From: Streptomyces sp. JB150
Lineage (GTDB): Bacteria > Actinomycetota > Actinomycetes > Streptomycetales > Streptomycetaceae
Direction of reading: 5' to 3'
Length of the DNA: 64,000 nucleotides
Assembly: GCF_011193355.1 (NCBI RefSeq)
Contig: NZ_CP049780.1
Location: 5,848,445-5,912,444, forward strand
Each line of letters opens with the position of its first letter. Within the stretch, counting starts at the first letter, position 1. Below, one piece after another: positions 1 to 19,171 of this stretch. The notes under the pieces were generated by a model. That model did not search any database and was not told the origin of the DNA. It was given only the letters and a program-made list of their open reading frames with translations. A program made the position numbers and the translations under genes.

Positions 1-1321
1 CCGCGGTGGTGGCGAGCCCGGTGAGCAGACCGAGCCAGACGCCGAGGGTGTCCAGGCCCGCCGCGAAGCCCAGCAGCGCGGCGGCGGGCAGCCCGACCAG
101 CCAGTAGCCGACCAGGGTGACCCGGAAGCCGCCCTTGGTGTCGTCCAGGCCGCGCAGCAGCCCCACCCCGATGTTCTGCGCGCAGTCGAAGAACTGGAGC
201 ACCGCCGCCACCAGCAGCAGCTGCGTCGCGATGTCCACCGCCCGCACCTCGCCGGACTCGAAGAACGGGGCCAGCACCAGCTTCGGCACGGTCAGGTAGA
301 CGAGTCCGACCACCGCCATCACCCCCGCCGCGCACGCCAGCGCGGTGTGCTGGAGCCGCCGCGCCGCCGCCGTGTTGCCGAGGGCCAGTTCGCGGCTGAC
401 GCCGATCGACGCCGCGTGCGAGAGGCCGACGGCGATCTGGAACACGATGTAGACCAGCTGGTTGACGGCCGTGTGGGCGGCCAGCGCGGCCGGCCCGAAG
501 CTGCCCACCAGCAGCGCGACGACGGAGAAGAACCCCGCCTCCGAGCCGTACGTCGCGGCGATCGGCGTACCGAGCGCGGTCAGCCGGCGCAGCGTCGCCG
601 GGCGGGTCTTCCAGATGCTCAGCGACAGCACCGGCGCGAGCTGCGGATCGCGCCGGGCCGACAGGTAGAGGGCCAGGAACGACAGGGCGTACACCGAGGT
701 CGTGGCCAGGCCGATGCCGGGCAGGCCGAGCTTCGGGAAGAACCAGGTGCCGTGGATGAACACCCAGTTCAGACCCGCGTTGACGGCGATCGAGGCGATC
801 GTGATGCGCAGCAGCGCCTGCGGGCGGCGCATGCCGACGGTGAACTGCCGGATCGCCTGGAACCACAGGCAGGGCAGCAGCCCCGGCGCCATCGCGTAGA
901 GCACCGGCTTCGCCGCGTCGACCACGTCCGGGTCCTGACCGAGCCAGACCACGGCGTGCCCGATCAGGATCATCAGGACGGCACCGGCGAGCCCGGCCAG
1001 GGTGGACAGCAGCAGGCTCGCCCGGACCAGGTCGCGGACGTCCTCCCGCGCCGCCTCGGAGCCGTCCTGCTCGCCGCGCGCGTCCGCCGCGGCGACCTGG
1101 TTGCCGACGGCGGTCACCAGACCGACGCCCATGGTGCGCAGCTGATTGAAGATCACCATCGCCAGACCGCCGGCCGCCAGGGCCTCGGTGCCGATCAGGC
1201 CCATCATGACGGTGTCGGTGGTGGTCAGCGCGACCTGCGCGAGCTGGGTCAGCGCGAGCGGCACCGCCAGCGTGGCGAGGGCGCGGCTGTCGGTGAGCAG
1301 ACGGGTCAGGGCGGGAGGCAT
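1..1321 (-). CDS. MATE family efflux transporter (3' end outside the window)
   Basis: Multidrug-and-toxin-extrusion family exporter; it would move a small molecule outwards across the membrane using a Na+ or H+ gradient. About 440 residues are visible and the C-terminus runs off the left edge. The product is hydrophobic throughout, with two MatE-type halves; the N-terminal half opens with the family-like run LALTQLAQVALTTTDTVMMG, and the second half carries the equivalent GFFSVVALLVGSFGPAALAAHT region. The ATG is chosen because GGAG sits about 5 nt upstream. The gene is the last visible member of the leftward operon, 77 bp after the SbnA-like gene, so export of the compound made by that operon is the natural inference. 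It could instead be a general drug exporter. Confidence 0.9.
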   Translation of the reverse strand, partial: MPPALTRLLTDSRALATLAVPLALTQLAQVALTTTDTVMMGLIGTEALAAGGLAMVIFNQLRTMGVGLVTAVGNQVAAADARGEQDGSEAAREDVRDLVRASLLLSTLAGLAGAVLMILIGHAVVWLGQDPDVVDAAKPVLYAMAPGLLPCLWFQAIRQFTVGMRRPQALLRITIASIAVNAGLNWVFIHGTWFFPKLGLPGIGLATTSVYALSFLALYLSARRDPQLAPVLSLSIWKTRPATLRRLTALGTPIAATYGSEAGFFSVVALLVGSFGPAALAAHTAVNQLVYIVFQIAVGLSHAASIGVSRELALGNTAAARRLQHTALACAAGVMAVVGLVYLTVPKLVLAPFFESGEVRAVDIATQLLLVAAVLQFFDCAQNIGVGLLRGLDDTKGGFRVTLVGYWLVGLPAAALLGFAAGLDTLGVWLGLLTGLATTA

Positions 1322-1398
1322 CGGATCTCCGCGAACTTCCTCTGGTCGTGGGGGAGTCGAGTGTGGCGGCGTCGGGCGTGGCGGCGGGCGTGGGCGGG

Positions 1399-2511
1399 TC
1401 AGGCGTGGCGGAGTTTGGTCAGCAGCGCGTCGACCTCGCGCTCCACATCGCGGTCGACGAGGTCGCGCGCGGCCATCCAGTCGTCGTCGAACACCGTGTC
1501 CAGGTACTTCTCCCCGCCGTCGTTGACGAGCGCGACCATAGTCGTTCCCGGCGGCTGTGAGGAGAGCCGGGCCAGCGCCTCGTACACCACCCCGCCCGCC
1601 GAGCCGCCGATCAGCAGCCCGGTGCGGCGGGCGACGACCCGGCAGGTGGCGAACGCCTCCACGTCACCGACCTTGACCCCCTCGTCGAGCAGGTCGTAGT
1701 CGACCATCGCGCCGATGGCGGCGCCCTCGGGGGTGCCGGTGCCGGACTGGTAGTAGTCGTGCGCCGGCGGCCCGAACGCGATCGACCCCTTCGGCTCGAC
1801 CCCGACGATCCGCACCCCGGGCACCGTCCTGCGCAGCTCGCCGCCGGTCCCGAACAGGCCGCCGCCGGTGCCGACGGCGCCGATCAGGACGTCGATACGG
1901 CCGTCCAGGGCGGCGTGCAGCTCATGGGCGACGGGCCGGTAACCGTCGCCGTTGGCCGGGTTGTTGTGCTGCTCGGTGAAGTAGGCGCCCGGCGACTCGG
2001 CGGCCAGCCTCTCGGCGAACTCCTCCCGGGCGGCGGTGGCCAGCTCCTCGTCGCCCTCGTCGGCGACGTAGACGAGTTCGGCGCCCAGCGCCTTCATCGC
2101 GCGCAGCTTGTCGGCGGCGGCGTGGTGGTCGACGACGGCGGTGAAGGTGTAGCCGCGCTCGGCGGCGACCACGGCGAGGCCCAGCCCGGTGTTCCCGGAG
2201 GTCGACTCGACGATCCGGCCGCCGGGGGGCAGCAGCCCGCGCTCCTCCGCGTCGAGGACCATCTGCCGGGCCATGCGTATCTTCGCGGTGCCGGTGGGAT
2301 TGAACTGCTCCAGTTTCAGCAGCAGCCGGCTGCCGTCCTGGGTGCGGCACAGCTCGAACAGGGGCGTGGCGCCGATGAGTTCGGTGACCCGGCGGACGAT
2401 CGGCGGACGGTGGAGGGCGTAGCCGGGGGTATGGACGGGGGCGGCGGCGGGCGTGGACTCCGGGGCGCGGTCCAGGGCATGGCCGGGGGCGCGGTCCAGG
2501 GTGTGGTCCAT
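1399..2511 (-). CDS. SbnA-like PLP-dependent synthase (cysteine synthase fold; diaminopropionate-type chemistry)
   Basis: 370 aa, PLP fold type II. Visible motifs are the Schiff-base lysine K77 in NPTGTAKIRM, the substrate loop STSGNTG at about 103-109, the phosphate-binding GTGGG at 214-218, and a C-terminal NDGGEKYLDTVFDDDWM that parallels the end of staphylococcal SbnA. SbnA joins O-phospho-L-serine to L-glutamate in 2,3-diaminopropionate synthesis; here the amine donor is unknown. The residue after the PLP lysine is Ile where the family usually has Asp (KDR). The first ~35 residues are a low-complexity extension with a duplicated LDRAP, encoded by a direct DNA repeat; no later start was found. 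It lies 12 nt behind the decarboxylase gene, so it belongs to the same operon. A plain cysteine synthase is less likely given its neighbours. Confidence 0.85.
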   Translation of the reverse strand: MDHTLDRAPGHALDRAPESTPAAAPVHTPGYALHRPPIVRRVTELIGATPLFELCRTQDGSRLLLKLEQFNPTGTAKIRMARQMVLDAEERGLLPPGGRIVESTSGNTGLGLAVVAAERGYTFTAVVDHHAAADKLRAMKALGAELVYVADEGDEELATAAREEFAERLAAESPGAYFTEQHNNPANGDGYRPVAHELHAALDGRIDVLIGAVGTGGGLFGTGGELRRTVPGVRIVGVEPKGSIAFGPPAHDYYQSGTGTPEGAAIGAMVDYDLLDEGVKVGDVEAFATCRVVARRTGLLIGGSAGGVVYEALARLSSQPPGTTMVALVNDGGEKYLDTVFDDDWMAARDLVDRDVEREVDALLTKLRHA

Positions 2512-2523
2512 GGTGGGAACTCC

Positions 2524-3897
2524 CTACGGGTGGCGGTCGAGACGCCAGCGGGGACGGGCGGCGGGATCGGCGGAGCCGGGGGCGGGTTCGACGACGACCT
2601 TCGGCGGCAGCGGCAGCTCGTGGAAGGGCGACTCGTTGGAGTCCATCTGGTAGCCCGCCGTGTTGAGGTAGACCAGCAGGTCGCCCACGGCCGGCCGGTG
2701 CGGGAACGGCACCCGCCGCCAGGTGAGCATGTCGGACTCCAGGCAGGTCGCGGCGCCGACGCAGGCCTCGTGGGTGCCCTCGGGGGACGGCACGCGCGGC
2801 ACCAGCACCGGGTCCGGCAGGAACTCGCTCTCGAACCACTGCTCGGACAGGCTGAGGCTGCTGCCGTCCACGGTGAGGATCGCGTACCCGTCGCGCTCCT
2901 TGACGCCCTGGATCCGGAAGACCGTGCACCCGGCCTGGTCCAGCAGTGCCCGGCCCGGCTCCACCAGCAGCGTCACCCCGGCCGCGCGCAGCAGCGCGGC
3001 CAGCGGGTCGGCCTCACCGGCGGGCACCGCCGCGAGGATCGCGCGCAGCGCGCCGGCCCCGGCGACGGGGGAGTGGTACGGGTAGAAGCCACCGGAGAAG
3101 GTCTTGCGCGCGTGGTAGTGCTCGGGCCGCTGCTCCTCGGTGAACCGGCGCCAGTCGTCGCCGTCGGCGTAGTCGACCGGGAAGCCGCCGCCGATGCTGA
3201 TCCGGTCGGCGCGCAGCCCCAGGGTGCGGGCGTGCCGGCACAGCCGCACCAGTTCCCCGGCGAGGTCGGCGCGCGCCGGGAGGTCGTAGCCGGACAGATG
3301 GAAGCTGAAGCCCTCCAGTACCAGCGGCGCGTCGGCGCAGCGGCGCAGCGCGGCCTCCAGTTCCTCCGCGTCCATGCCGAACCGGCTGTGCGGCTGGGCG
3401 GGCGGCAGCCGCCGCAGCAACACCCGCGCGGTGCGGCCCAGTCCGGCCGCCGCGTGGGCGATCCGGTCCAGCTCGTCGAGGGCGTCGACGGCGACGAGCG
3501 CGCCCTGGAGCACGGCGACCCGCAGCAGGTCGTCCGCCTTGGCGGGCCCGGTCACCACCACGTCGGGCGCGGGCACCCCGCAGGCCAGGGTCTCGCGCAG
3601 CTCCCCGAGGCTGGCCACGTCGACGCCGAGGCCCAGCACGGCGGCCCGCTCGGTGTACAGAGCGGCCTTGTTGGCCTTCTTGGCGTAGTAGACCCGCCCG
3701 GCGACGCCCGCCTCGGCGAACGCGTCCCGGAAGGCGGCCGCGTTGGCGTCGAAGGGGCCGGGGAACAGCACGTGGTACGGCCCGCCGAGGCCATGGCTCA
3801 GCTCGTGCAGCAGCGGCCCGGCGGCGAGCAGTGCCCGCGTCTCGGGTGCCTGCCGGGCGGGCAGCGAGGGCACGGCGGGAGCGGTCACTGCGGTCAC
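2524..3897 (-). CDS. PLP fold-III amino acid decarboxylase (Orn/DAP/Arg decarboxylase 2 family, SbnH-like)
   Basis: 457 aa. The alanine-racemase-like barrel carries the PLP lysine in VYYAKKANKA (residue ~74), a Gly-rich IGGGFPVDY phosphate loop, EPGR, and the C-terminal active-site cysteine in GAATCLESDML. The family removes alpha-carboxylates from diamino acids or their conjugates. In staphyloferrin B synthesis SbnH decarboxylates a diaminopropionate conjugate to leave an ethylenediamine unit, and the same role is plausible here beside SbnA- and SbnB-like genes. The GTG start is chosen because it gives a GTGA overlap with the stop of the upstream dehydrogenase gene; another GTG lies 6 nt further out. 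Diaminopimelate decarboxylase (lysA) is unlikely in this context. Confidence 0.85.
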   Translation of the reverse strand: MTAVTAPAVPSLPARQAPETRALLAAGPLLHELSHGLGGPYHVLFPGPFDANAAAFRDAFAEAGVAGRVYYAKKANKAALYTERAAVLGLGVDVASLGELRETLACGVPAPDVVVTGPAKADDLLRVAVLQGALVAVDALDELDRIAHAAAGLGRTARVLLRRLPPAQPHSRFGMDAEELEAALRRCADAPLVLEGFSFHLSGYDLPARADLAGELVRLCRHARTLGLRADRISIGGGFPVDYADGDDWRRFTEEQRPEHYHARKTFSGGFYPYHSPVAGAGALRAILAAVPAGEADPLAALLRAAGVTLLVEPGRALLDQAGCTVFRIQGVKERDGYAILTVDGSSLSLSEQWFESEFLPDPVLVPRVPSPEGTHEACVGAATCLESDMLTWRRVPFPHRPAVGDLLVYLNTAGYQMDSNESPFHELPLPPKVVVEPAPGSADPAARPRWRLDRHP

Positions 3898-4892
3898 TGC
3901 CACAGCGGCACCACCGTGCCGAGCCCCTGGGCGAGGGCGAGTTCGGCGAAGCGGTGGCCGAGCGCGATGTCGGTGACGACCAGCCCGCTGTTGTAGGCGA
4001 AGATCCGCTGCCCGGGATCGGTGCGCCCGGCCGCCCGGCCGGCGAGCACGTCGGGGAACTCGGCATCCACGTCGCGCAGTTCGCCGCTGTCGTCGGCCAT
4101 GTCGGTGCCGGTGACCCGCATCTGGGCGGCGCTGGTGGCGATCACCCGGTCGGCGCGGTGCAGGGTGGACGGTGCGATGCCGTAGCCGACGAGCACGGAC
4201 AGCGCGGCGGGCTTGAGCCAGTCGGCGTCGACGGAGGCGGGCGTGTGGGGTCCGGCGGTGGCCAGGACGATGTCGGCGTCCTCGGCGGCGGCGCGCAGAT
4301 CGGTGACGATCTCCGGCTCGCGTCCGGGGAAGTGGGCGTGCAGCTGCTCGCGCACCGCGCGTATGCCGTCCGGGTGGGTGCCGAAGACCATCAGCCGCTC
4401 CAGCCGCGGCATGGTCGTCAGCAGGAAGGGCAGGGCGAGCCGGCCCTGGGTGCCGGTGCCGATGACGAGCGCGCTGCGGGCGCCGGGCGCGGCCAGTTCG
4501 CGGGCGAGGAGCGCGGAGACCGCGGGGGTGCGCAGGGCGCCGACGCGGCCGCAGTCCATCATCGCGACCGGCAGTCCGGTGGCGTCGTCGTAGAGGGTGA
4601 GGGTCGTGTAGTAGTGCTGCTTGTCGCGGTCCTCGTGCAGGCCGTACTTGTACGACGTCTTGACGGCGACGACCCCGCGCTCCCCGTCCCGGCCGAGCAT
4701 CGCGTACGCCACCGAGTGGCCGTCCTCTGGTTTCACGGTGAGCTTGCGCGGATTGTCGGAGCGGCCCGCGGCCAGGGTGCCGTAGGCCTGCTCCACCACG
4801 GCGACGACATCGGCGAGGGTGATCTCGATGCCGGCGACGTCACTGGTGCTGAGGATGCGCAGGGTGGTGTCCGAAGCGTGGGTGGCGGTCAT
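3894..4892 (-). CDS. SbnB-like NAD(P)-dependent dehydrogenase (ornithine cyclodeaminase / mu-crystallin family)
   Basis: 332 aa. A Rossmann nucleotide-binding loop GTGTQGR is at about 145-151, preceded by the family-typical GALRTPAVSALLAREL helix and the VAVKTSYKYG substrate region. SbnB oxidatively splits the SbnA product into diaminopropionate and 2-oxoglutarate; other relatives are opine-type reductases or ornithine cyclodeaminases. Because an SbnA-like gene lies two genes away, I infer the SbnB-type reaction, or a reductive opine-forming variant. It overlaps both neighbours by 4 bp (ATGA with the dioxygenase, GTGA with the decarboxylase), so translation is coupled. The substrate cannot be read from sequence alone. 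Confidence 0.85.
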   Translation of the reverse strand: MTATHASDTTLRILSTSDVAGIEITLADVVAVVEQAYGTLAAGRSDNPRKLTVKPEDGHSVAYAMLGRDGERGVVAVKTSYKYGLHEDRDKQHYYTTLTLYDDATGLPVAMMDCGRVGALRTPAVSALLARELAAPGARSALVIGTGTQGRLALPFLLTTMPRLERLMVFGTHPDGIRAVREQLHAHFPGREPEIVTDLRAAAEDADIVLATAGPHTPASVDADWLKPAALSVLVGYGIAPSTLHRADRVIATSAAQMRVTGTDMADDSGELRDVDAEFPDVLAGRAAGRTDPGQRIFAYNSGLVVTDIALGHRFAELALAQGLGTVVPLWQ

Positions 4893-5881
4893 GCGTCGTA
4901 AGCCTCCAGAACCTTCTGTCCGTAGCCGTGTTCGAAGCGTTCCGCCGGGGGGCGGGTACGACGCCCCGGAACGCGCACGGAGGAACGTTTCAGCCAGCGG
5001 TCCGTGCCGTCGTAGCGGGCCGTGAAGGGGACCCGGCCGTGCACCACGAGGTCGTTGTCCACGACCAGGACCTGGCCGGGCTCCAGGCTGACCGCGGTGG
5101 CGACCCGGGACAGCTCGTCCGTCAGCCGCTCGTAGGCGGCGCGGTGCGCGGTGCCGGCCCGCTCCAGCGGGGTGTAGGCGGGGTCGAAGCGCAGGGTGAG
5201 GCCGTCCGGCGACTGCCACAGCGTCGGCACGGGCTGCGGGTCACCGGCGTGGCCGCGCGCCTCGGCGTAGGCGTCGTCGGGCAGGATCGGCAGCTCCGGG
5301 CGGGACAGCAGCCCTAAGTCGTCACCGGACAGCCGGACCCGGCGCACGCTCGCGGCCGTGGTGGCCACCGCGTCCGGGTTGCGCAGGCAGGACAGCAGCA
5401 GCAGATGGGCGCGGCCGGGGTGGAAGGCGTCCTCGGTGTGCGGGCTGAGCAGCACGGTGCTGCTGGCGCCGGTCTGCTCCTCCTCGTGGCCGGGCGAGGG
5501 CACGATGTCGTGCACGAACCGGCCCTCCTGCTGGCCCTCCCAGGCGAGGGGGACGCCCATCACCGCGGAGAGCAGCAGCAGTTCGACGTCGTGCACCACG
5601 CCCGCGCCGCCGGCGCTCGACCAGTGGGCGGGCGTCGGGCCGAGCGCGCGGTCGTCGACCTCCAGGCCGGCCAGGACGAACAGTCCGTCGGGGGTGCCGG
5701 CGGGGCGGCAGGCGTCCCGGATGCCGTCGCTCAACGCGGCTGTCGCGTAGGGGAGTTCGGCGAGCAGGTCGAGGTCGGCGGAGGTGCCGGAGAAGTGGTG
5801 CAGCAGGGTCTCGGCGGCGGTGCGCAGTTCCGCCGCCTGGTCGGGTGTGAGGGTTCGTACGGGCAAGGCTCCCGTGGGCAT
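4889..5881 (-). CDS. Fe(II)/2-oxoglutarate dioxygenase, arginine/asparagine beta-hydroxylase type (VioC/AsnO-like)
   Basis: 330 aa of the clavaminate synthase-like TauD superfamily. The metal triad reads as H148 and E150 in SPHTEDAFHP (HxE rather than HxD, as in VioC) with distal H281 in VVHGRVPF, and an Arg in WLKRSSVR for 2-oxoglutarate. Family members beta-hydroxylate free Arg, Asn or similar amino acids for peptide natural products. It is the first gene of the leftward operon; its ATG is about 135 nt downstream of a -10 TATGTT whose -35 overlaps an iron box. The ribosome site is weak. With the SbnA/SbnB/decarboxylase set it suggests a hydroxyamino acid, perhaps hydroxyarginine, built into a metal chelator. 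An Fe(II)-dependent enzyme inside an iron-starvation operon is noteworthy. Confidence 0.85.
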   Translation of the reverse strand: MPTGALPVRTLTPDQAAELRTAAETLLHHFSGTSADLDLLAELPYATAALSDGIRDACRPAGTPDGLFVLAGLEVDDRALGPTPAHWSSAGGAGVVHDVELLLLSAVMGVPLAWEGQQEGRFVHDIVPSPGHEEEQTGASSTVLLSPHTEDAFHPGRAHLLLLSCLRNPDAVATTAASVRRVRLSGDDLGLLSRPELPILPDDAYAEARGHAGDPQPVPTLWQSPDGLTLRFDPAYTPLERAGTAHRAAYERLTDELSRVATAVSLEPGQVLVVDNDLVVHGRVPFTARYDGTDRWLKRSSVRVPGRRTRPPAERFEHGYGQKVLEAYDA

Positions 5882-6016
5882 GGTGAGTTGTCCGTTCCGG
5901 AGGCTGAGGGCGTTTCCGTGGCGCTGTTTCGGACAGCGCTTTCCGATGGCGAACGGGCTCTTGCGGTGGCCTTCCAGGGCTTGTCACGGTCCGTAGCCGC
6001 TTGGTGGCCGTCGAGA

Positions 6017-6045
6017 AACATAGCCAACACATAAGGTGTAGGCAA
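6017..6045 (-). promoter_or_regulatory. Promoter of the leftward metallophore operon
   Basis: On the minus strand TTGCCT (6045-6040) is followed after 17 bp by TATGTT (6022-6017). The -35 lies inside the first iron box, so a bound repressor would exclude RNA polymerase. Read by eye only; no start site is known. Confidence 0.5.
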
Positions 6046-6056
6046 GGCTTACCTAA
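6038..6056. promoter_or_regulatory. Iron box 1 (DmdR1/IdeR-type operator)
   Basis: GTAGGCAAGGCTTACCTAA matches 15 of 19 positions of the DtxR/IdeR consensus TTAGGTTAGSCTAACCTAA. It overlaps the leftward -35 and lies between the two divergent arms. DmdR1 is the Streptomyces DtxR-family iron repressor. Confidence 0.75.
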
Positions 6057-6101
6057 GCTTGTTCAATGTCACGCCGTGCGCCCTTGTGCGCCCCCCGCAG
6101 G

Positions 6102-6120
6102 GCAGGGTAGGCAAACCTCA
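6102..6120. promoter_or_regulatory. Iron box 2 (DmdR1/IdeR-type operator)
   Basis: GCAGGGTAGGCAAACCTCA matches about 14 of 19 positions of the same consensus and lies 35-53 bp before the binding-protein start. It probably controls the rightward ABC importer operon. A second box in one 273-bp divergent spacer strengthens the iron-control reading. Confidence 0.6.
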
Positions 6121-6154
6121 GCAAGTGGCCCACCGGGTGAAATCGAGGACGAAC

Positions 6155-7708
6155 GTGGATCTGACGAGACGTCAACTGTTGTGCACGGGCGGCGCCTTGA
6201 CCGCCACCGCGCTGCTCGGCGGCTGCGGGGACGGCAGTGACGACGACACCGCCGGGTCCCCCGGCGCCGGAACGAAGCCCCGCCGCGGCGGCACCCTGCG
6301 GGTCGGCGCCCTCGGCCGCGCGGGCGCCATCACCCGCGACCCGCACGGCACCCAGGCCAACGAGAGCGACTACCTGATCCTCAGCCTCGTATACGACACC
6401 CTCACCGTGCCCGGCACCAAGCCGAACACCGTGCCCCGGCTCGCCGCCGCATGGCAGCCCTCCGACGATCTGAAGACCTGGCGATTCACACTCGCCAAGG
6501 GTGCCGCCTTCCACGACGGCACCCCCGTCACCGCCGCCGACGTCGTGTTCTCGCTGCGCCGGCTGCGCGCCACCCCCTCCGGTGCCTCCCGGCTCCCCGG
6601 CATCCAGGCGAAGAACATCACCGCCGACGGCGACGGCACCGTCGTCCTCGTCTCCGACTACCCCAACGCCGAACTGCCCCAGCTCACCCGGCTCACCACC
6701 TTCGTCATACCCGAGGGCACCACCGACAAGGACATAGCCAAGGCTCCCGGAACCGGCCCCTTCACGCTCGACTGGTTCCGCGGCGGCAACGCCCGCCTCG
6801 TCCGCAACGACACCTGGTACGGCGGCGACGTCCACCTCGACGCCATCGAGGTGAAGATCTTCGAATCCCCCCAGGCGATGGCGAACGCCCTGCTCTCCGG
6901 GCAGATCGACCTCGCCTCCAACGTCGGCGCCGTCGCCGCCCGCACCGCCGCGAACCGGGGGGACATCCGGACCGTCCGCCGGCCCAACGACATGGCCATG
7001 CCCCTCGTGATGCGCACCGCCGACGGCCCCTTCGCCGACCCGAGGGTCCGCGAGGCCCTGCGGCTCGCCGTCGACCGCGAGGCCATGGTCAAGCAGGTCC
7101 TCTCCGGCTACGGCAGCGTCGCCAACGACATCCTCGGCACCGGCGACCCCGCCTACGCCAAGGACATCCCCCAGCGCACCCGCGACCTGGCCCGGGCCAA
7201 GCGGCTGCTGAAGGAAGCCGGCTTCGACACCTCCAGGACCTACGAACTGCTCACCACCGAGGACATCTCCGGACTCGCCGAATCCGCCACCCTCTTCGCC
7301 TCCCAGGTCCGCGAGGCAGGCGTCAGGATCAAGGTGGTCAAGCAGGAGTCCGCCGTCTTCTGGGACAAGACCTGGCTCAAGGGCGACCTCTACACCACCT
7401 ACTGGGGCACCAACGACTCCGTCGTGTTCTTCGCCAGCAAGACCATGGTCTCCGACAGCGGCCAGAACGAGGCCGGCTGGCAGGACGAGGAGTTCGACAC
7501 CGCCTACGAGAAGGCGATGGCCACCGCCGACGCCACCGCCCGCGCCCGGCAGCTGCGCGAACTCCAGCAGATCCAGCACGAACGCTCCGGCTACCTGCTG
7601 TGGGGCATGGCCGACGGCATCGACCTCGCCGCACCCGCCGTCCAGGGGCTGCCCAAGCTGCCCGGCTACGGACGCGTCCAGCTCGAGCGGGCATGGCTGG
7701 CCCGTTGA
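6155..7708 (+). CDS. ABC importer solute-binding lipoprotein, peptide/nickel (SBP_bac_5) type
   Basis: 517 aa. The N-terminus DLTRRQLLCTGGAL has a twin-arginine RRQLL and a lipobox ending LLGGC, so export through Tat and lipid anchoring is likely. The body follows cluster-C binding proteins (GGTLRVG, then FTLAKGAAFHDGTPVTAADVV, and later FADPRVREALRLAVDREAM). These bind oligopeptides, nickel or opine-type metallophores. GTG at 6155 is chosen over an in-frame start at 6059 because GAGG stands 6 nt before it and the signal peptide begins there. It heads the rightward operon behind two iron boxes, so I infer uptake of the ferric or other metal chelate made by the divergent operon. Confidence 0.88.
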   Translation: MDLTRRQLLCTGGALTATALLGGCGDGSDDDTAGSPGAGTKPRRGGTLRVGALGRAGAITRDPHGTQANESDYLILSLVYDTLTVPGTKPNTVPRLAAAWQPSDDLKTWRFTLAKGAAFHDGTPVTAADVVFSLRRLRATPSGASRLPGIQAKNITADGDGTVVLVSDYPNAELPQLTRLTTFVIPEGTTDKDIAKAPGTGPFTLDWFRGGNARLVRNDTWYGGDVHLDAIEVKIFESPQAMANALLSGQIDLASNVGAVAARTAANRGDIRTVRRPNDMAMPLVMRTADGPFADPRVREALRLAVDREAMVKQVLSGYGSVANDILGTGDPAYAKDIPQRTRDLARAKRLLKEAGFDTSRTYELLTTEDISGLAESATLFASQVREAGVRIKVVKQESAVFWDKTWLKGDLYTTYWGTNDSVVFFASKTMVSDSGQNEAGWQDEEFDTAYEKAMATADATARARQLRELQQIQHERSGYLLWGMADGIDLAAPAVQGLPKLPGYGRVQLERAWLAR

Positions 7709-8700
7709 CGACCGACACCGCCGCGCCGCCCCGCACGACCGGGCCGGCGCGGCACCCCGCCGTATCCGCGCTCCTCGCCACCGGGGCCCTGCTGCTCAAA
7801 CGCGCCGCGCTGCTCGCCCTGCTGCTCGCCCTCGTCTTCTGCGCCGTCGAGCTGCTGCCCGGCGACGCCGCCAACGCCACCTCCGAGCGCGGCGAGAGCG
7901 CCGCCGACATCGACCGCCGCCGCGCACTGCTCGGCCTCGACCGGCCGGTCCTCGAACGCTTCTGGGACTGGATGTCGGGCCTGCCCACCGGCGACCTCGG
8001 CACCTCCGCCCGCGGCGAGCCGGTCACCGACCTGCTCTCCACCGCGTTCCCCAACACCCTGCTCCTCGGCGGCATCGCCCTGCTGCTCACCGCCACCCTC
8101 TCGCTCACCCTCGGCTGCTGGGCCGCGCTCCGGCCCGGCGGACGCACCGACCGCGCCGTGTCCGGCACCGCCACCGCCGTCCTCGCCCTGCCCGAGTTCG
8201 TGGTGGCCGTGGCCCTCGTCCTGGTGCTCTCGCTGTGGACCGGCTGGCTTCCCGCCGTCACCCTCACCGACGTCGACGGAACCCCCGACTCCTGGACCAT
8301 GCTCGTCCTGCCCGCCCTCGCCCTGACCATCCCGCAGACCGGCTGGAACGTCCGCATCGTGCGGGCCGCGCTCGCCGACGAGGCCCGCGCCCCGCACGTG
8401 GAGACCGCCGTCCTCGACGGCCTCCCGCCGCACCGCGTCCTCACCCACCACGTCCTGCCCGGCGCCCTGCCCACCATCGCGGCCGGCCTCGCCACCTCCA
8501 CCGGCATGCTGCTCGGCGGCGCCGTCGTCGTCGAGACCATCTTCAACTACCCCGGCATCGGCTCCGTCCTGGCCTCCGCCGTCACCGACCGCGACAGCCC
8601 CGTCATCGCCGGGGTCACCGCCCTCGCCGGCGCGGTCATCACCGTCGTACTCCTCCTGGCCGACCTGGTACGGGACCTGATGGCGGGAGGCCGCCGATGA
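7693..8700 (+). CDS. ABC importer permease, DppB/OppB/NikB type
   Basis: 335 aa with an N-terminal membrane helix, the conserved periplasmic ELLPGDAANA segment followed by LLGLDRPVLERFWDWMSGL, then five further helices and the EAA loop ETAVLDGLPPHRVLTHHVLPGA that docks on the ATPase. This is the architecture of the first permease of peptide/nickel importers. The ATG overlaps the end of the binding-protein gene by 16 bp; a TTG at 7705 giving a 4-bp overlap is an alternative start. It is coupled downstream by an ATGA overlap. Role: one half of the membrane channel for the substrate of the preceding binding protein. Confidence 0.88.
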   Translation: MAGPLTTDTAAPPRTTGPARHPAVSALLATGALLLKRAALLALLLALVFCAVELLPGDAANATSERGESAADIDRRRALLGLDRPVLERFWDWMSGLPTGDLGTSARGEPVTDLLSTAFPNTLLLGGIALLLTATLSLTLGCWAALRPGGRTDRAVSGTATAVLALPEFVVAVALVLVLSLWTGWLPAVTLTDVDGTPDSWTMLVLPALALTIPQTGWNVRIVRAALADEARAPHVETAVLDGLPPHRVLTHHVLPGALPTIAAGLATSTGMLLGGAVVVETIFNYPGIGSVLASAVTDRDSPVIAGVTALAGAVITVVLLLADLVRDLMAGGRR

Positions 8701-9509
8701 CCACGACCCGCGGCTTTCCGCTCCGCGTCCTGCCCGCGCTGCTCCTCGTCACGCTCGCCCTGTGCGGCCCCTGGATCGCCCCGCACGCCATCGACACCCC
8801 CGTCACCGCGCCGTACGCCGAACCGGGAGCCGACGCCGTGCTCGGCGGCGACCAGCTCGGCCGGGACGTGCTCAGCAGGCTCCTCGCCGGAGGACGCGAA
8901 CTCGTCGTCTCCTCGCTGCTCGTGGCCGTCCTCGTCACCGCCGTCGCCGCCGTCCTCAGCGCCGTCGGCGCCCTCCGGCCCGCCGTCGGACGGATCGTGG
9001 AACGCGCCGCCGACGTGCTGATGCTGCTGCCCGCCGTGCTCGGCATCCTCCTGGTCACCCTCTCCTGGCCGGGCGGCGGCCGGCTCGCCGTCGTCGCCGC
9101 CGCCGTCGCCCTCGGCGTGCCCTACGCCGTGCGGCTCGTCGCGGGCGCCGCCGCGCCCGTCGCCGCCACCGGATACGTCGAGGCCGCCGCGGCGGGCGGC
9201 GAACGCCTCTGGCACCTGGTGTGGCGGGAGATCCTGCCCAACCTGCGCGCCACCCTCCTCGCCCTGTTCGGACTGCGCTTCGTCGCCGCCGTCTACCTCG
9301 TCGCCACCGCCGGGTTCCTCCAGGTCGGCCCGCAACCCCCGGCCGCCGACTGGGCGCTGATGATCCGCGAGAACTCCGCCGGCATCCTCCTCAACCCCTG
9401 GGCCGTGGTCGCCCCCAGCGCCGCCATCGGCCTGCTCGCCCTGAGCGTCAACCTCGCCGCGGCGGCCCTCGCCCCGCAGACCGGCCGGAAGGCGGTACCC
9501 GTCCTGTGA
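8697..9509 (+). CDS. ABC importer permease, DppC/OppC/NikC type
   Basis: 270 aa, the second permease of the same importer. It has an N-terminal helix, the typical HAIDTPV...LGGDQLGRDVLSRLLAGGR segment (compare GTDxxGRDxxSR in DppC), and the EAA loop YVEAAAAGGERLWHLVWREILPN. The start is fixed by the ATGA overlap with the upstream permease, and it overlaps the ATPase gene by GTGA. The last helix ends close to a short cytoplasmic tail. No residues are unusual for the family. Confidence 0.88.
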   Translation: MTTTRGFPLRVLPALLLVTLALCGPWIAPHAIDTPVTAPYAEPGADAVLGGDQLGRDVLSRLLAGGRELVVSSLLVAVLVTAVAAVLSAVGALRPAVGRIVERAADVLMLLPAVLGILLVTLSWPGGGRLAVVAAAVALGVPYAVRLVAGAAAPVAATGYVEAAAAGGERLWHLVWREILPNLRATLLALFGLRFVAAVYLVATAGFLQVGPQPPAADWALMIRENSAGILLNPWAVVAPSAAIGLLALSVNLAAAALAPQTGRKAVPVL

Positions 9510-11095
9510 GCCACGACCCCGACCGGTACCCGAAGCCCGCCGGACCGCCGGCCGACACCCCCGTCGTCCGGGTCAGAGGCCTCACCGTCACCGCTCCCGG
9601 AGGCCGCCTCCTGCTGCAGGACGCCGCCCTCGCCCTGCGCCCCGGCCGGGTCACCGCCCTCACCGGCCCGTCCGGCTCCGGCAAGACCACCCTGCTGCGC
9701 GCGGTCACCGGACTGCTCCCGCCCGGCACCCGGCGCACCGCCGGCCACGTCGACGTCCTCGGCCACGACGTGTTCGCCGTCTCCGACAAGGACCTGCGCG
9801 CCCTGCGCAGCCGCCGCCTCGCCTATGTCGGCCAGGACCCCGGATCCGGCCTCAACCCGCGGATGCGGGTACGCACCCTCGTCCGCGAACTCGCCGCCGA
9901 CCGCGCCGCCGACACGGTGACCGCCCTGCTCGCCGAGGTCCGCCTGCCCGACGACGGCGGGCTCGCCGCCCGCCGCCCGGCCGCCCTCTCCGGCGGCCAG
10001 CAGCGCCGCGTCGCCCTCGCCCGCGCCCTGGCCCGCCGCCCCGACGTCCTGCTCCTGGACGAGCCCACCGCCGGACTCCACCCCGAACTCCGCGAGGAAA
10101 TCGGCGACCTGCTGCGCCACCTCGCCGCCGAACACCGGCTGGCGATCTGCCTGTCCTGCCACGACCCGGAACTGGTCGACCGGATCGCCGACGACGTCGT
10201 GGAACTCGGCGGCCGGCTGCCCGCACCCCGGCCCGCCCTGGCGCCGCCCACCCCGCGGGACGGCGCGGACGAGCCCGGTGCGTCCGGCGTGCTCGCAGTG
10301 CCCGGCGTGCCGGTCCTGGAGGTCCGCGACCTCCGCGTCGTCTTCGGCCCCCGCCGGCGCGGCACCGCTCCCGCCCTCGACGGCGTCGGCCTGACCGTCG
10401 CCCCCGGCGGCGCCACCGGCATCGTCGGCGCGTCCGGCTCGGGCAAGACCACCCTCGTACGGGCGATCGTCGGACTCCAGCCGGTCACCTCCGGCACCCT
10501 CCGCCTCGACGGGCAGCCGCTCAGCACCGGACTGCGCGCCCGCGCCCGCGCCCAGCGCCGCCGCATCCAGCTGGTCACCCAGAACCCGCTCGGCGCGCTC
10601 AACCCCAGCCGCACCATCGGCGCCGCGATCGGCCGCCCGCTGCGCCTGCACCGCCGCTGCCCGCCCGCGGAGGCACCCGGACGCGTGGCCGGCCTGCTCG
10701 AACGGGTCGGCCTGCCGCCCGCCTTCGCCGACCGCTACCCGCACGAACTCTCCGGAGGCCAGCGCCAGCGCGTCGCCATCGCCCGCGCCCTCGCCGCCGA
10801 CCCGGACGTCCTGATCTGCGACGAGGTCACCTCCGCGCTGGACTCCGGCACGGCCGAGGCGATCATGGACCTGCTGGCCCGGCTGCGCGAGGAGCGCGGC
10901 ACCGCCCTCGTCCTCATCAGCCACGACCTCCCGCTCGTCGCCGAGCGCACGGACACCGTGACGGTGCTCGACGCGGGCCGGGTCGTCGAGTCGGGCCCGA
11001 CGGCCGAGGTGTTCGCGGCGCCGTCGCATCCGGCGACGCGGGCCCTGCTCACCGTGGACCCGGCCGCGCGGCGGACGGCGGGCCGCCTCCGCTGA
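9506..11095 (+). CDS. Fused double ABC ATPase of the Opp/Nik-type importer
   Basis: 529 aa with two complete nucleotide-binding domains in one chain. Domain 1 (about 20-235) has Walker A GPSGSGKTT, signature LSGGQQRR and Walker B VLLLDEPT. Domain 2 (about 270-525) has GASGSGKTT, LSGGQRQR and VLICDEVTS. In most Dpp/Nik systems these are two proteins (DppD and DppF), so this is a fusion replacing both. The linker is Pro/Ala rich. In domain 1 the switch His is in SCHDPELV; in domain 2 it is in SHDLPLV. It is the last gene of the rightward operon and is followed by a strong hairpin. Confidence 0.9.
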   Translation: MSHDPDRYPKPAGPPADTPVVRVRGLTVTAPGGRLLLQDAALALRPGRVTALTGPSGSGKTTLLRAVTGLLPPGTRRTAGHVDVLGHDVFAVSDKDLRALRSRRLAYVGQDPGSGLNPRMRVRTLVRELAADRAADTVTALLAEVRLPDDGGLAARRPAALSGGQQRRVALARALARRPDVLLLDEPTAGLHPELREEIGDLLRHLAAEHRLAICLSCHDPELVDRIADDVVELGGRLPAPRPALAPPTPRDGADEPGASGVLAVPGVPVLEVRDLRVVFGPRRRGTAPALDGVGLTVAPGGATGIVGASGSGKTTLVRAIVGLQPVTSGTLRLDGQPLSTGLRARARAQRRRIQLVTQNPLGALNPSRTIGAAIGRPLRLHRRCPPAEAPGRVAGLLERVGLPPAFADRYPHELSGGQRQRVAIARALAADPDVLICDEVTSALDSGTAEAIMDLLARLREERGTALVLISHDLPLVAERTDTVTVLDAGRVVESGPTAEVFAAPSHPATRALLTVDPAARRTAGRLR

Positions 11096-16244: not shown

Positions 16245-16286
16245 TCTGCCGAGGCGCACCGCAGCCACCACAGCAGTAAGGTAGAC

Positions 16287-16305
16287 CTAACTTAGCCTTA
16301 CCTTA
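16287..16305. promoter_or_regulatory. Iron-box-like site upstream of aconitase
   Basis: CTAACTTAGCCTTACCTTA matches about 14 of 19 positions of the IdeR consensus when read with the S-centred palindrome, and a second weaker box overlaps it on the left (TAAGGTAGACCTAAC). It stands 68-86 bp before the start codon. Confidence 0.5.
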
Positions 16306-16372
16306 GCGGATCGGCCAAGCTCGCGTGGCGGCAGGATGCGGTGGTACGCGCACATCAATGAAGGAGACTGTC

Positions 16373-19171
<2,799 letters not shown>

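Follow-up and report, generated by a model that had tools for sequence, protein, structure and literature searches.

The closest described systems to the locus studied here are gene clusters for the metallophore ethylenediaminesuccinic acid hydroxyarginine (EDHA). In PMC10702961, Streptomyces sp. MA5143a serves as the EDHA reference and the EDHA route is described as independent of non-ribosomal peptide (NRP) synthesis. An 11 kb EDHA cluster, scab_5231-5311, is reported for S. scabiei 87.22 in PMC8914351; the range comprises nine tags if the numbers step by ten, as other tags in the text do. PMC11888242 gives MIBiG entry BGC0002567 for EDHA. Here we compare with these clusters a nine-gene locus at the left end of a 64,000-nucleotide stretch of Streptomyces sp. 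JB150 (hereafter the window), which is part of a single-contig genome of 7.32 Mb (C1:5848445-5912444). The locus is very probably an EDHA gene cluster, because it shows nine-gene collinearity with the loci of MA5143a and S. scabiei, falls in the same clade, encodes an arginine-hydroxylase homologue, and carries conserved iron boxes. It is an intact orthologue of the described loci, and its novelty is low.

Organization and orthology to described EDHA loci

Two divergent operons lie around an intergenic stretch of ~270 bases (5882-6154). The leftward operon encodes, in order, a hydroxylase, an ornithine cyclodeaminase (OCD)/SbnB-like enzyme, a decarboxylase, an SbnA-like synthase, and a MATE exporter. 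The rightward operon encodes a lipoprotein solute-binding protein, two permeases, and a single protein with two ATPase domains (Table 1). The first four leftward genes overlap or are 12 bases apart, with the start codon of the OCD/SbnB-like gene overlapping the stop codon of the hydroxylase gene, and 77 bases precede the MATE gene. The MATE gene crosses the window edge by 71 bases; therefore, the cluster begins slightly left of position 1.

To find related loci, named genomes were scanned with an OCD alignment, which yielded 242 stretches, of which 220 are relatives of the OCD protein; the best 80 were kept. MA5143a (L039) has counterparts of all nine genes in the same order and on the same strands, with protein identities of 68-88%. 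In the left part, the identities are 87% for MATE, 83% for the SbnA-like enzyme, 72% for the decarboxylase, 88% for OCD, and 73% for the hydroxylase; in the right part, they are 82% for the binding protein, 85 and 88% for the permeases, and 68% for the ATPase. In S. scabiei 87.22 (L035, contig range 586966-605940), nine collinear genes span ~11 kb with 73-88% identity. Three joined proteins were used for a rapid maximum-likelihood tree of 77 rows, without bootstrap, in which the window, S. glaucescens, and Streptomyces sp. TSRI0107 form a three-strain subclade apart from MA5143a. This subclade is inside a 14-row clade (SH-like approximate likelihood ratio test, 99) that holds both MA5143a and S. 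scabiei.

An earlier note, made from the letters of the window, had described divergent operons around two iron boxes, with an Arg/Asn-type hydroxylase, SbnB-like dehydrogenase, pyridoxal phosphate (PLP) decarboxylase, SbnA-like synthase, and MATE exporter on the left and a peptide/nickel-type importer with a fused double ATPase on the right. Domain matches recover every one of these genes, including two ABC_tran stretches in the fused ATPase, and both boxes hold up on scoring and in relatives. Homology to EDHA loci also supports the note's proposal of a small chelator containing a diamine or hydroxyarginine. Its label "uncharacterised" no longer fits, since the nine genes are collinear with the EDHA loci of MA5143a (PMC10702961) and S. 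scabiei 87.22 (PMC8914351).

Table 1 Features of the locus, in window coordinates
Feature	Position	Strand	Evidence
MATE-family exporter, 463 aa	1..1321, last 71 bases left of window	(-)	PF01554 132 bits; TIGR00797 186 bits (cut-off 147, exceeded); whole frame at L009 9930-11321
SbnA-like PLP synthase	1399..2511	(-)	PF00291 216 bits; TIGR03945 232 bits
PLP decarboxylase, diaminopimelate/ornithine decarboxylase-like	2524..3903	(-)	PF02784 86 bits
OCD/SbnB-like NAD(P)-dependent enzyme	3894..4892	(-)	PF02423 99 bits
Fe(II)/2-oxoglutarate hydroxylase, L-arginine beta-hydroxylase (VioC/GntD) group	4889..5881	(-)	PF02668 40 bits
Iron box 1	6038..6056	no strand	15/19 vs DmdR1/IdeR consensus
Iron box 2	6102..6120	no strand	14/19 vs DmdR1/IdeR consensus
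Family-5 solute-binding lipoprotein, NikA/CntA-like	6155..7708	(+)	PF00496 258 bits; TRRQLL start, LGGC lipobox
ABC permease 1, NikB/OppB type	7693..8700	(+)	PF00528 119 bits
ABC permease 2, NikC/OppC type	8697..9509	(+)	PF00528 64 bits
Fused double ABC ATPase, NikD/E or DppD/F type	9506..11095	(+)	two PF00005 (ABC_tran) stretches

Iron boxes

The boxes were scored against a 19-position DmdR1/IdeR consensus. Box 1 is the best site in the 64 kb, and box 2 is joint second-best with a site at 16287 (14/19). Of 500 copies of the intergenic stretch generated with a first-order Markov model, two reach a score of 14 and none a score of 15. Among the related loci, 81 of 82 are scoreable, of which 77 were treated as divergent and four as other. 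The best site reaches at least 13/19 in all 77 divergent loci and at least 14 in 76, and the second site does so in 70 and 65, respectively; outside the intergenic stretches, at least 14/19 is found at 10 of 1,422,398 positions. Three of the four other loci have a site of 14-16/19 upstream of the hydroxylase. In the fourth, from S. chattanoogensis (L069), no iron-box site is found upstream of the hydroxylase (best 10/19), the start of which was extrapolated from a partial match.

The site at 16287 is close to an aconitase gene (16325-19171) with iron-box-like sites of 14/19 and 13/19 upstream, within 16277-16305; the genome has one more aconitase-family match, in a 509-codon frame. We rejected this iron box as a novelty because PMC12161575 shows that prediction of a DmdR1 site in the SCO5998-SCO5999 interval has been published before.

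Biosynthetic enzymes

The best match of the hydroxylase among solved structures is the L-arginine beta-hydroxylase 4m23 (7.8e-53), which we take to be OrfP, followed by other arginine hydroxylases, CmnC, an asparagine oxygenase, and lysine hydroxylases. The family models GntD (242 bits) and VioC (198 bits) both match under their cut-offs. Residues H148, E150, D151, D233, and H281 are kept in at least 98% of 80 relatives, MA5143a among them; the elements conserved at this level comprise the HxED motif, the distal histidine, the RWLKR stretch, and the aspartate of the RxDP motif. Presumably, HxED and the distal histidine serve as metal ligands and D233 binds the guanidinium group. Because of the arginine beta-hydroxylase match and the conserved motif residues, the product of the hydroxylase is likely beta-hydroxyarginine.

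For the SbnA-like enzyme, the best NCBIfam model is TIGR03945 (SbnA family), with 232 bits against a cut-off of 350. Its nearest solved structures, O-acetylserine sulfhydrylase and cystathionine beta-synthase, do not fix the substrate. K77 and the SGNTG loop are conserved in at least 98% of 68 relatives, and the substrates are probably O-phosphoserine and an amino acid. The decarboxylase scores 113 bits against the LysA model TIGR01048 (cut-off 298), and its EPGR and CxxxD motifs are conserved in at least 98% of 78 relatives. The OCD/SbnB-like enzyme scores 104 bits against the SbnB family TIGR03944 (cut-off 327). Among structures, it best matches pyrroline-2-carboxylate reductase 6t3e (1.3e-16) and then 4m54 (5.8e-15), which is listed as a putative ornithine cyclodeaminase and which we take to be SbnB.

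Proposed pathway and transport

The likeliest product is EDHA, with C-N bond formation as the only joining chemistry. When iron is limiting, a DmdR/IdeR-type repressor would leave the two boxes and both operons would be transcribed. The hydroxylase would convert L-arginine to beta-hydroxyarginine. The SbnA-like enzyme could then join the alpha-amine of hydroxyarginine or aspartate to C3 of O-phosphoserine, and the decarboxylase would remove the serine-derived carboxyl to give an N-(2-aminoethyl) amino acid. Finally, the SbnB/OCD-like enzyme would reductively join the free amine to a 2-oxo acid, e.g. oxaloacetate, to yield EDHA; we infer both the reductive direction of this step and which acid enters first. 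Together, these three enzymes could form an ethylenediamine bridge out of O-phosphoserine, an amino acid, and a 2-oxo acid. By our count, the donor groups of EDHA would be two amines, three carboxylates, and one hydroxyl.

The MATE protein would export EDHA and the Nik/Opp-class importer would return the metal complex, putatively Fe-EDHA. The NikA model gives the binding protein 119 bits and the CntA model a lower 84 bits, each falling well short of its cut-off. Its best structural match is the family-5 binding protein 5u4o (5e-32), followed by NikA structures including 1zlq (9e-21). We take 1zlq to be NikA with Fe-EDTA, an aminopolycarboxylate.

Left flank

In the 10 kb left of the window, 11 of the possible open reading frames (ORFs) were scanned. 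None has an NRP synthetase, NRP synthetase-independent siderophore (NIS) synthetase, or ATP-grasp domain. Eight have matches: an amino-acid permease, an enoyl-CoA hydratase, a FAD-monooxygenase/FMN-oxidoreductase fusion, a PaaX regulator, an AMP-binding ligase, an acyl-CoA dehydrogenase, DUF6299, and an L-PSP endoribonuclease-like ORF; 3 of the 11 have no match. The AMP-binding enzyme is stand-alone, within an apparently catabolic gene group. This group, at window -8524 to -1085 (L009 1476-8915), comprises the hydratase, the FAD/FMN fusion, PaaX, the AMP-binding ligase, and the acyl-CoA dehydrogenase, and we take it to resemble 2-aminobenzoate (anthranilate) degradation.

The earlier note had left two options, a synthetase left of the window or C-N bonds alone, and had asked for inspection of this flank. 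On inspection, a hidden synthetase is rejected, as it is absent among the 11 ORFs; the second option stands, in line with the NRP-independent route in PMC10702961. An assembly line for another product class, which the note would have counted against its reading, is likewise absent among these ORFs. The single-contig genome holds a complete iron-boxed EDHA-type cluster, and the scanned left-flank ORFs give no hint that an assembly line is missing.

Alternative products

Several points weigh against EDHA as the product. The EDHA structure and the assignment of genes to steps are provisional here, and the product of this strain is predicted from its genes. The SbnA, SbnB, VioC, and GntD models are all matched below their curated cut-offs, the structures nearest to the SbnA-like enzyme are those of cysteine/cystathionine synthases, and the tree was built rapidly, with no bootstrapping. 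PMC10702961 has four genes, AesA-D, against five leftward genes here. The decarboxylase and hydroxylase identities of only 72-73% to MA5143a leave room for a changed product. A close EDHA variant, with another hydroxylated amino acid, stereoisomer, or oxo acid, would accord with these differences at 27-28% of positions, with the sub-cut-off family matches, and with the position of the three-strain subclade apart from MA5143a within the clade. However, the metal-ligand motif and D233 of the hydroxylase are at least 98% conserved in the 80 relatives including MA5143a, and the gene order is identical to that of MA5143a; we consider such a variant quite unlikely.

[S,S]-Ethylenediaminedisuccinic acid (EDDS), a zincophore, is another ethylenediamine-based aminopolycarboxylate, and its cluster is expected to have the core enzymes in common with the locus. 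The arginine-hydroxylase-type gene argues against an EDDS cluster, as do the nearest loci with a reported product, which are EDHA loci in a comparison made without EDDS cluster sequences or a Zur-box search. In addition, the boxes look like iron boxes, while EDDS is reported as zinc-dependent (PMC12161575, in a reference title; PMC10486106). An EDDS cluster is therefore extremely improbable.

The SbnA/SbnB-like enzymes and the CntA-related binding protein (84 bits) would suit a metallophore of the staphyloferrin B/diaminopropionate or opine (staphylopine) type. The sbn cluster is marked by the NIS synthetases SbnC/E/F, and staphylopine-type clusters by a nicotianamine-synthase-like gene and an opine dehydrogenase. 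No match to SbnC/E/F-type NIS synthetases, to a nicotianamine-synthase-like gene, or to an opine dehydrogenase is found among the nine genes or the 11 left-flank ORFs, and the SbnB score is one third of the cut-off. A product of either type is hardly credible, and EDHA is preferred.

Distribution and variants

Gene content was compared across 82 loci, the best 80 from the OCD scan and two plasmid loci, at an E-value threshold of 1e-8. All nine genes are found in 65 loci, and the hydroxylase in all 82, two by partial matches. Several of the remaining 17 are short stretches or come from contig ends, but not all do. The stretches of Nocardia farcinica (L011), S. chattanoogensis (L069), and S. buecherae (L078) have none of the four importer genes, and that of S. 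lavendulae (L077) lacks three, the fourth being a 71-residue match; in these four loci, the five neighbouring ORFs that were scanned include no replacement importer. The ATPase gene is missing in Streptomyces sp. uw30 (L071) and the MATE gene in two Streptosporangium loci.

In S. torulosus (L036), the MATE gene is absent and the SbnA-like gene is a distant one. Agreement of its contig with MA5143a is 96.6% as far as position 7123, within the decarboxylase, and ends there; PALP-rhodanese, aminotransferase, and methyltransferase genes follow. We based nothing on this apparent variant cluster; the contig may reflect a misjoin/misassembly or recombination. The locus is included in the gene-content, iron-box, motif-conservation, and tree counts.

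An OCD match at 1e-20 is found in 13 of 150 Streptomycetaceae genomes, 10 at 72% identity or more (the genome of the window included) and three at 28-31%. The survey in PMC11888242 counts 1,450 EDHA windows across 24 genera. Two clusters of this type per strain are present in SAJ15 (L041/L067), DSM 15324 (L031/L097), and S. cinnamoneus (L055/L090), and the paired clusters fall in different parts of the tree.

Alphaproteobacterial plasmid loci

An SbnA match is present in 557 records, and plasmid loci from three of these were examined. The three, from Rhizobium sp. CCGE532, Aureimonas sp. AU20, and Agrobacterium vitis, carry the OCD-decarboxylase-SbnA-MATE core in the same order with 41-57% identity (L109 5057-10467; L110 5083-10432; L111 4952-10461). 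In all three, a small ParB-domain gene precedes the core at the position of the hydroxylase. The Rhizobium ParB-domain protein shows weak similarity to structures of free serine kinase (7e-6 to 1e-5), and the SerK model matches the Rhizobium and A. vitis proteins at 3e-9 and 5e-10 (37-39 bits, with the cut-off at 380); we take the protein to be SbnI-like. A weakly serine-kinase-like gene beside the core fits O-phosphoserine as a core substrate. The plasmid importers are annotated as iron-type ABC systems, with an Opp-like one besides in A. vitis. A narrow keyword search of the literature found no publication on the Rhizobiales core with the ParB-domain gene.

The comparison suggests which gene is behind the hydroxyarginine part and which four genes form a shared core. 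A broader idea is that aminopolycarboxylate assembly exists in several interchangeable versions, in which the SbnA-like, decarboxylase, OCD, and MATE genes stay constant while the first gene is swapped, being an arginine hydroxylase in the window and serine-kinase-like in Rhizobiales. This idea, combined with a window subclade possibly making an undescribed EDHA variant, seems unlikely to us.

Comparison with known systems

Among the clusters that the earlier note had proposed for comparison, EDHA agrees in nine of nine genes. With staphyloferrin B, the locus shares the SbnA and SbnB enzyme families, but no NIS synthetases are seen among the genes scanned and the scores are under the SbnA/SbnB cut-offs. 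With the Rhizobiales plasmid loci, it shares the four-gene core and its order, whereas the plasmids have a ParB-domain gene in place of the hydroxylase and importers annotated as iron-type ABC systems, besides the Opp-like one in A. vitis. The S. scabiei 87.22 EDHA cluster has the same nine collinear genes over ~11 kb and two iron-box-like sites, and differs in protein sequence (73-88% identity). The MA5143a EDHA locus agrees in its nine genes, their order and divergent arrangement, and the presence of two iron-box-like sites, and differs, as far as compared, by sequence divergence only.

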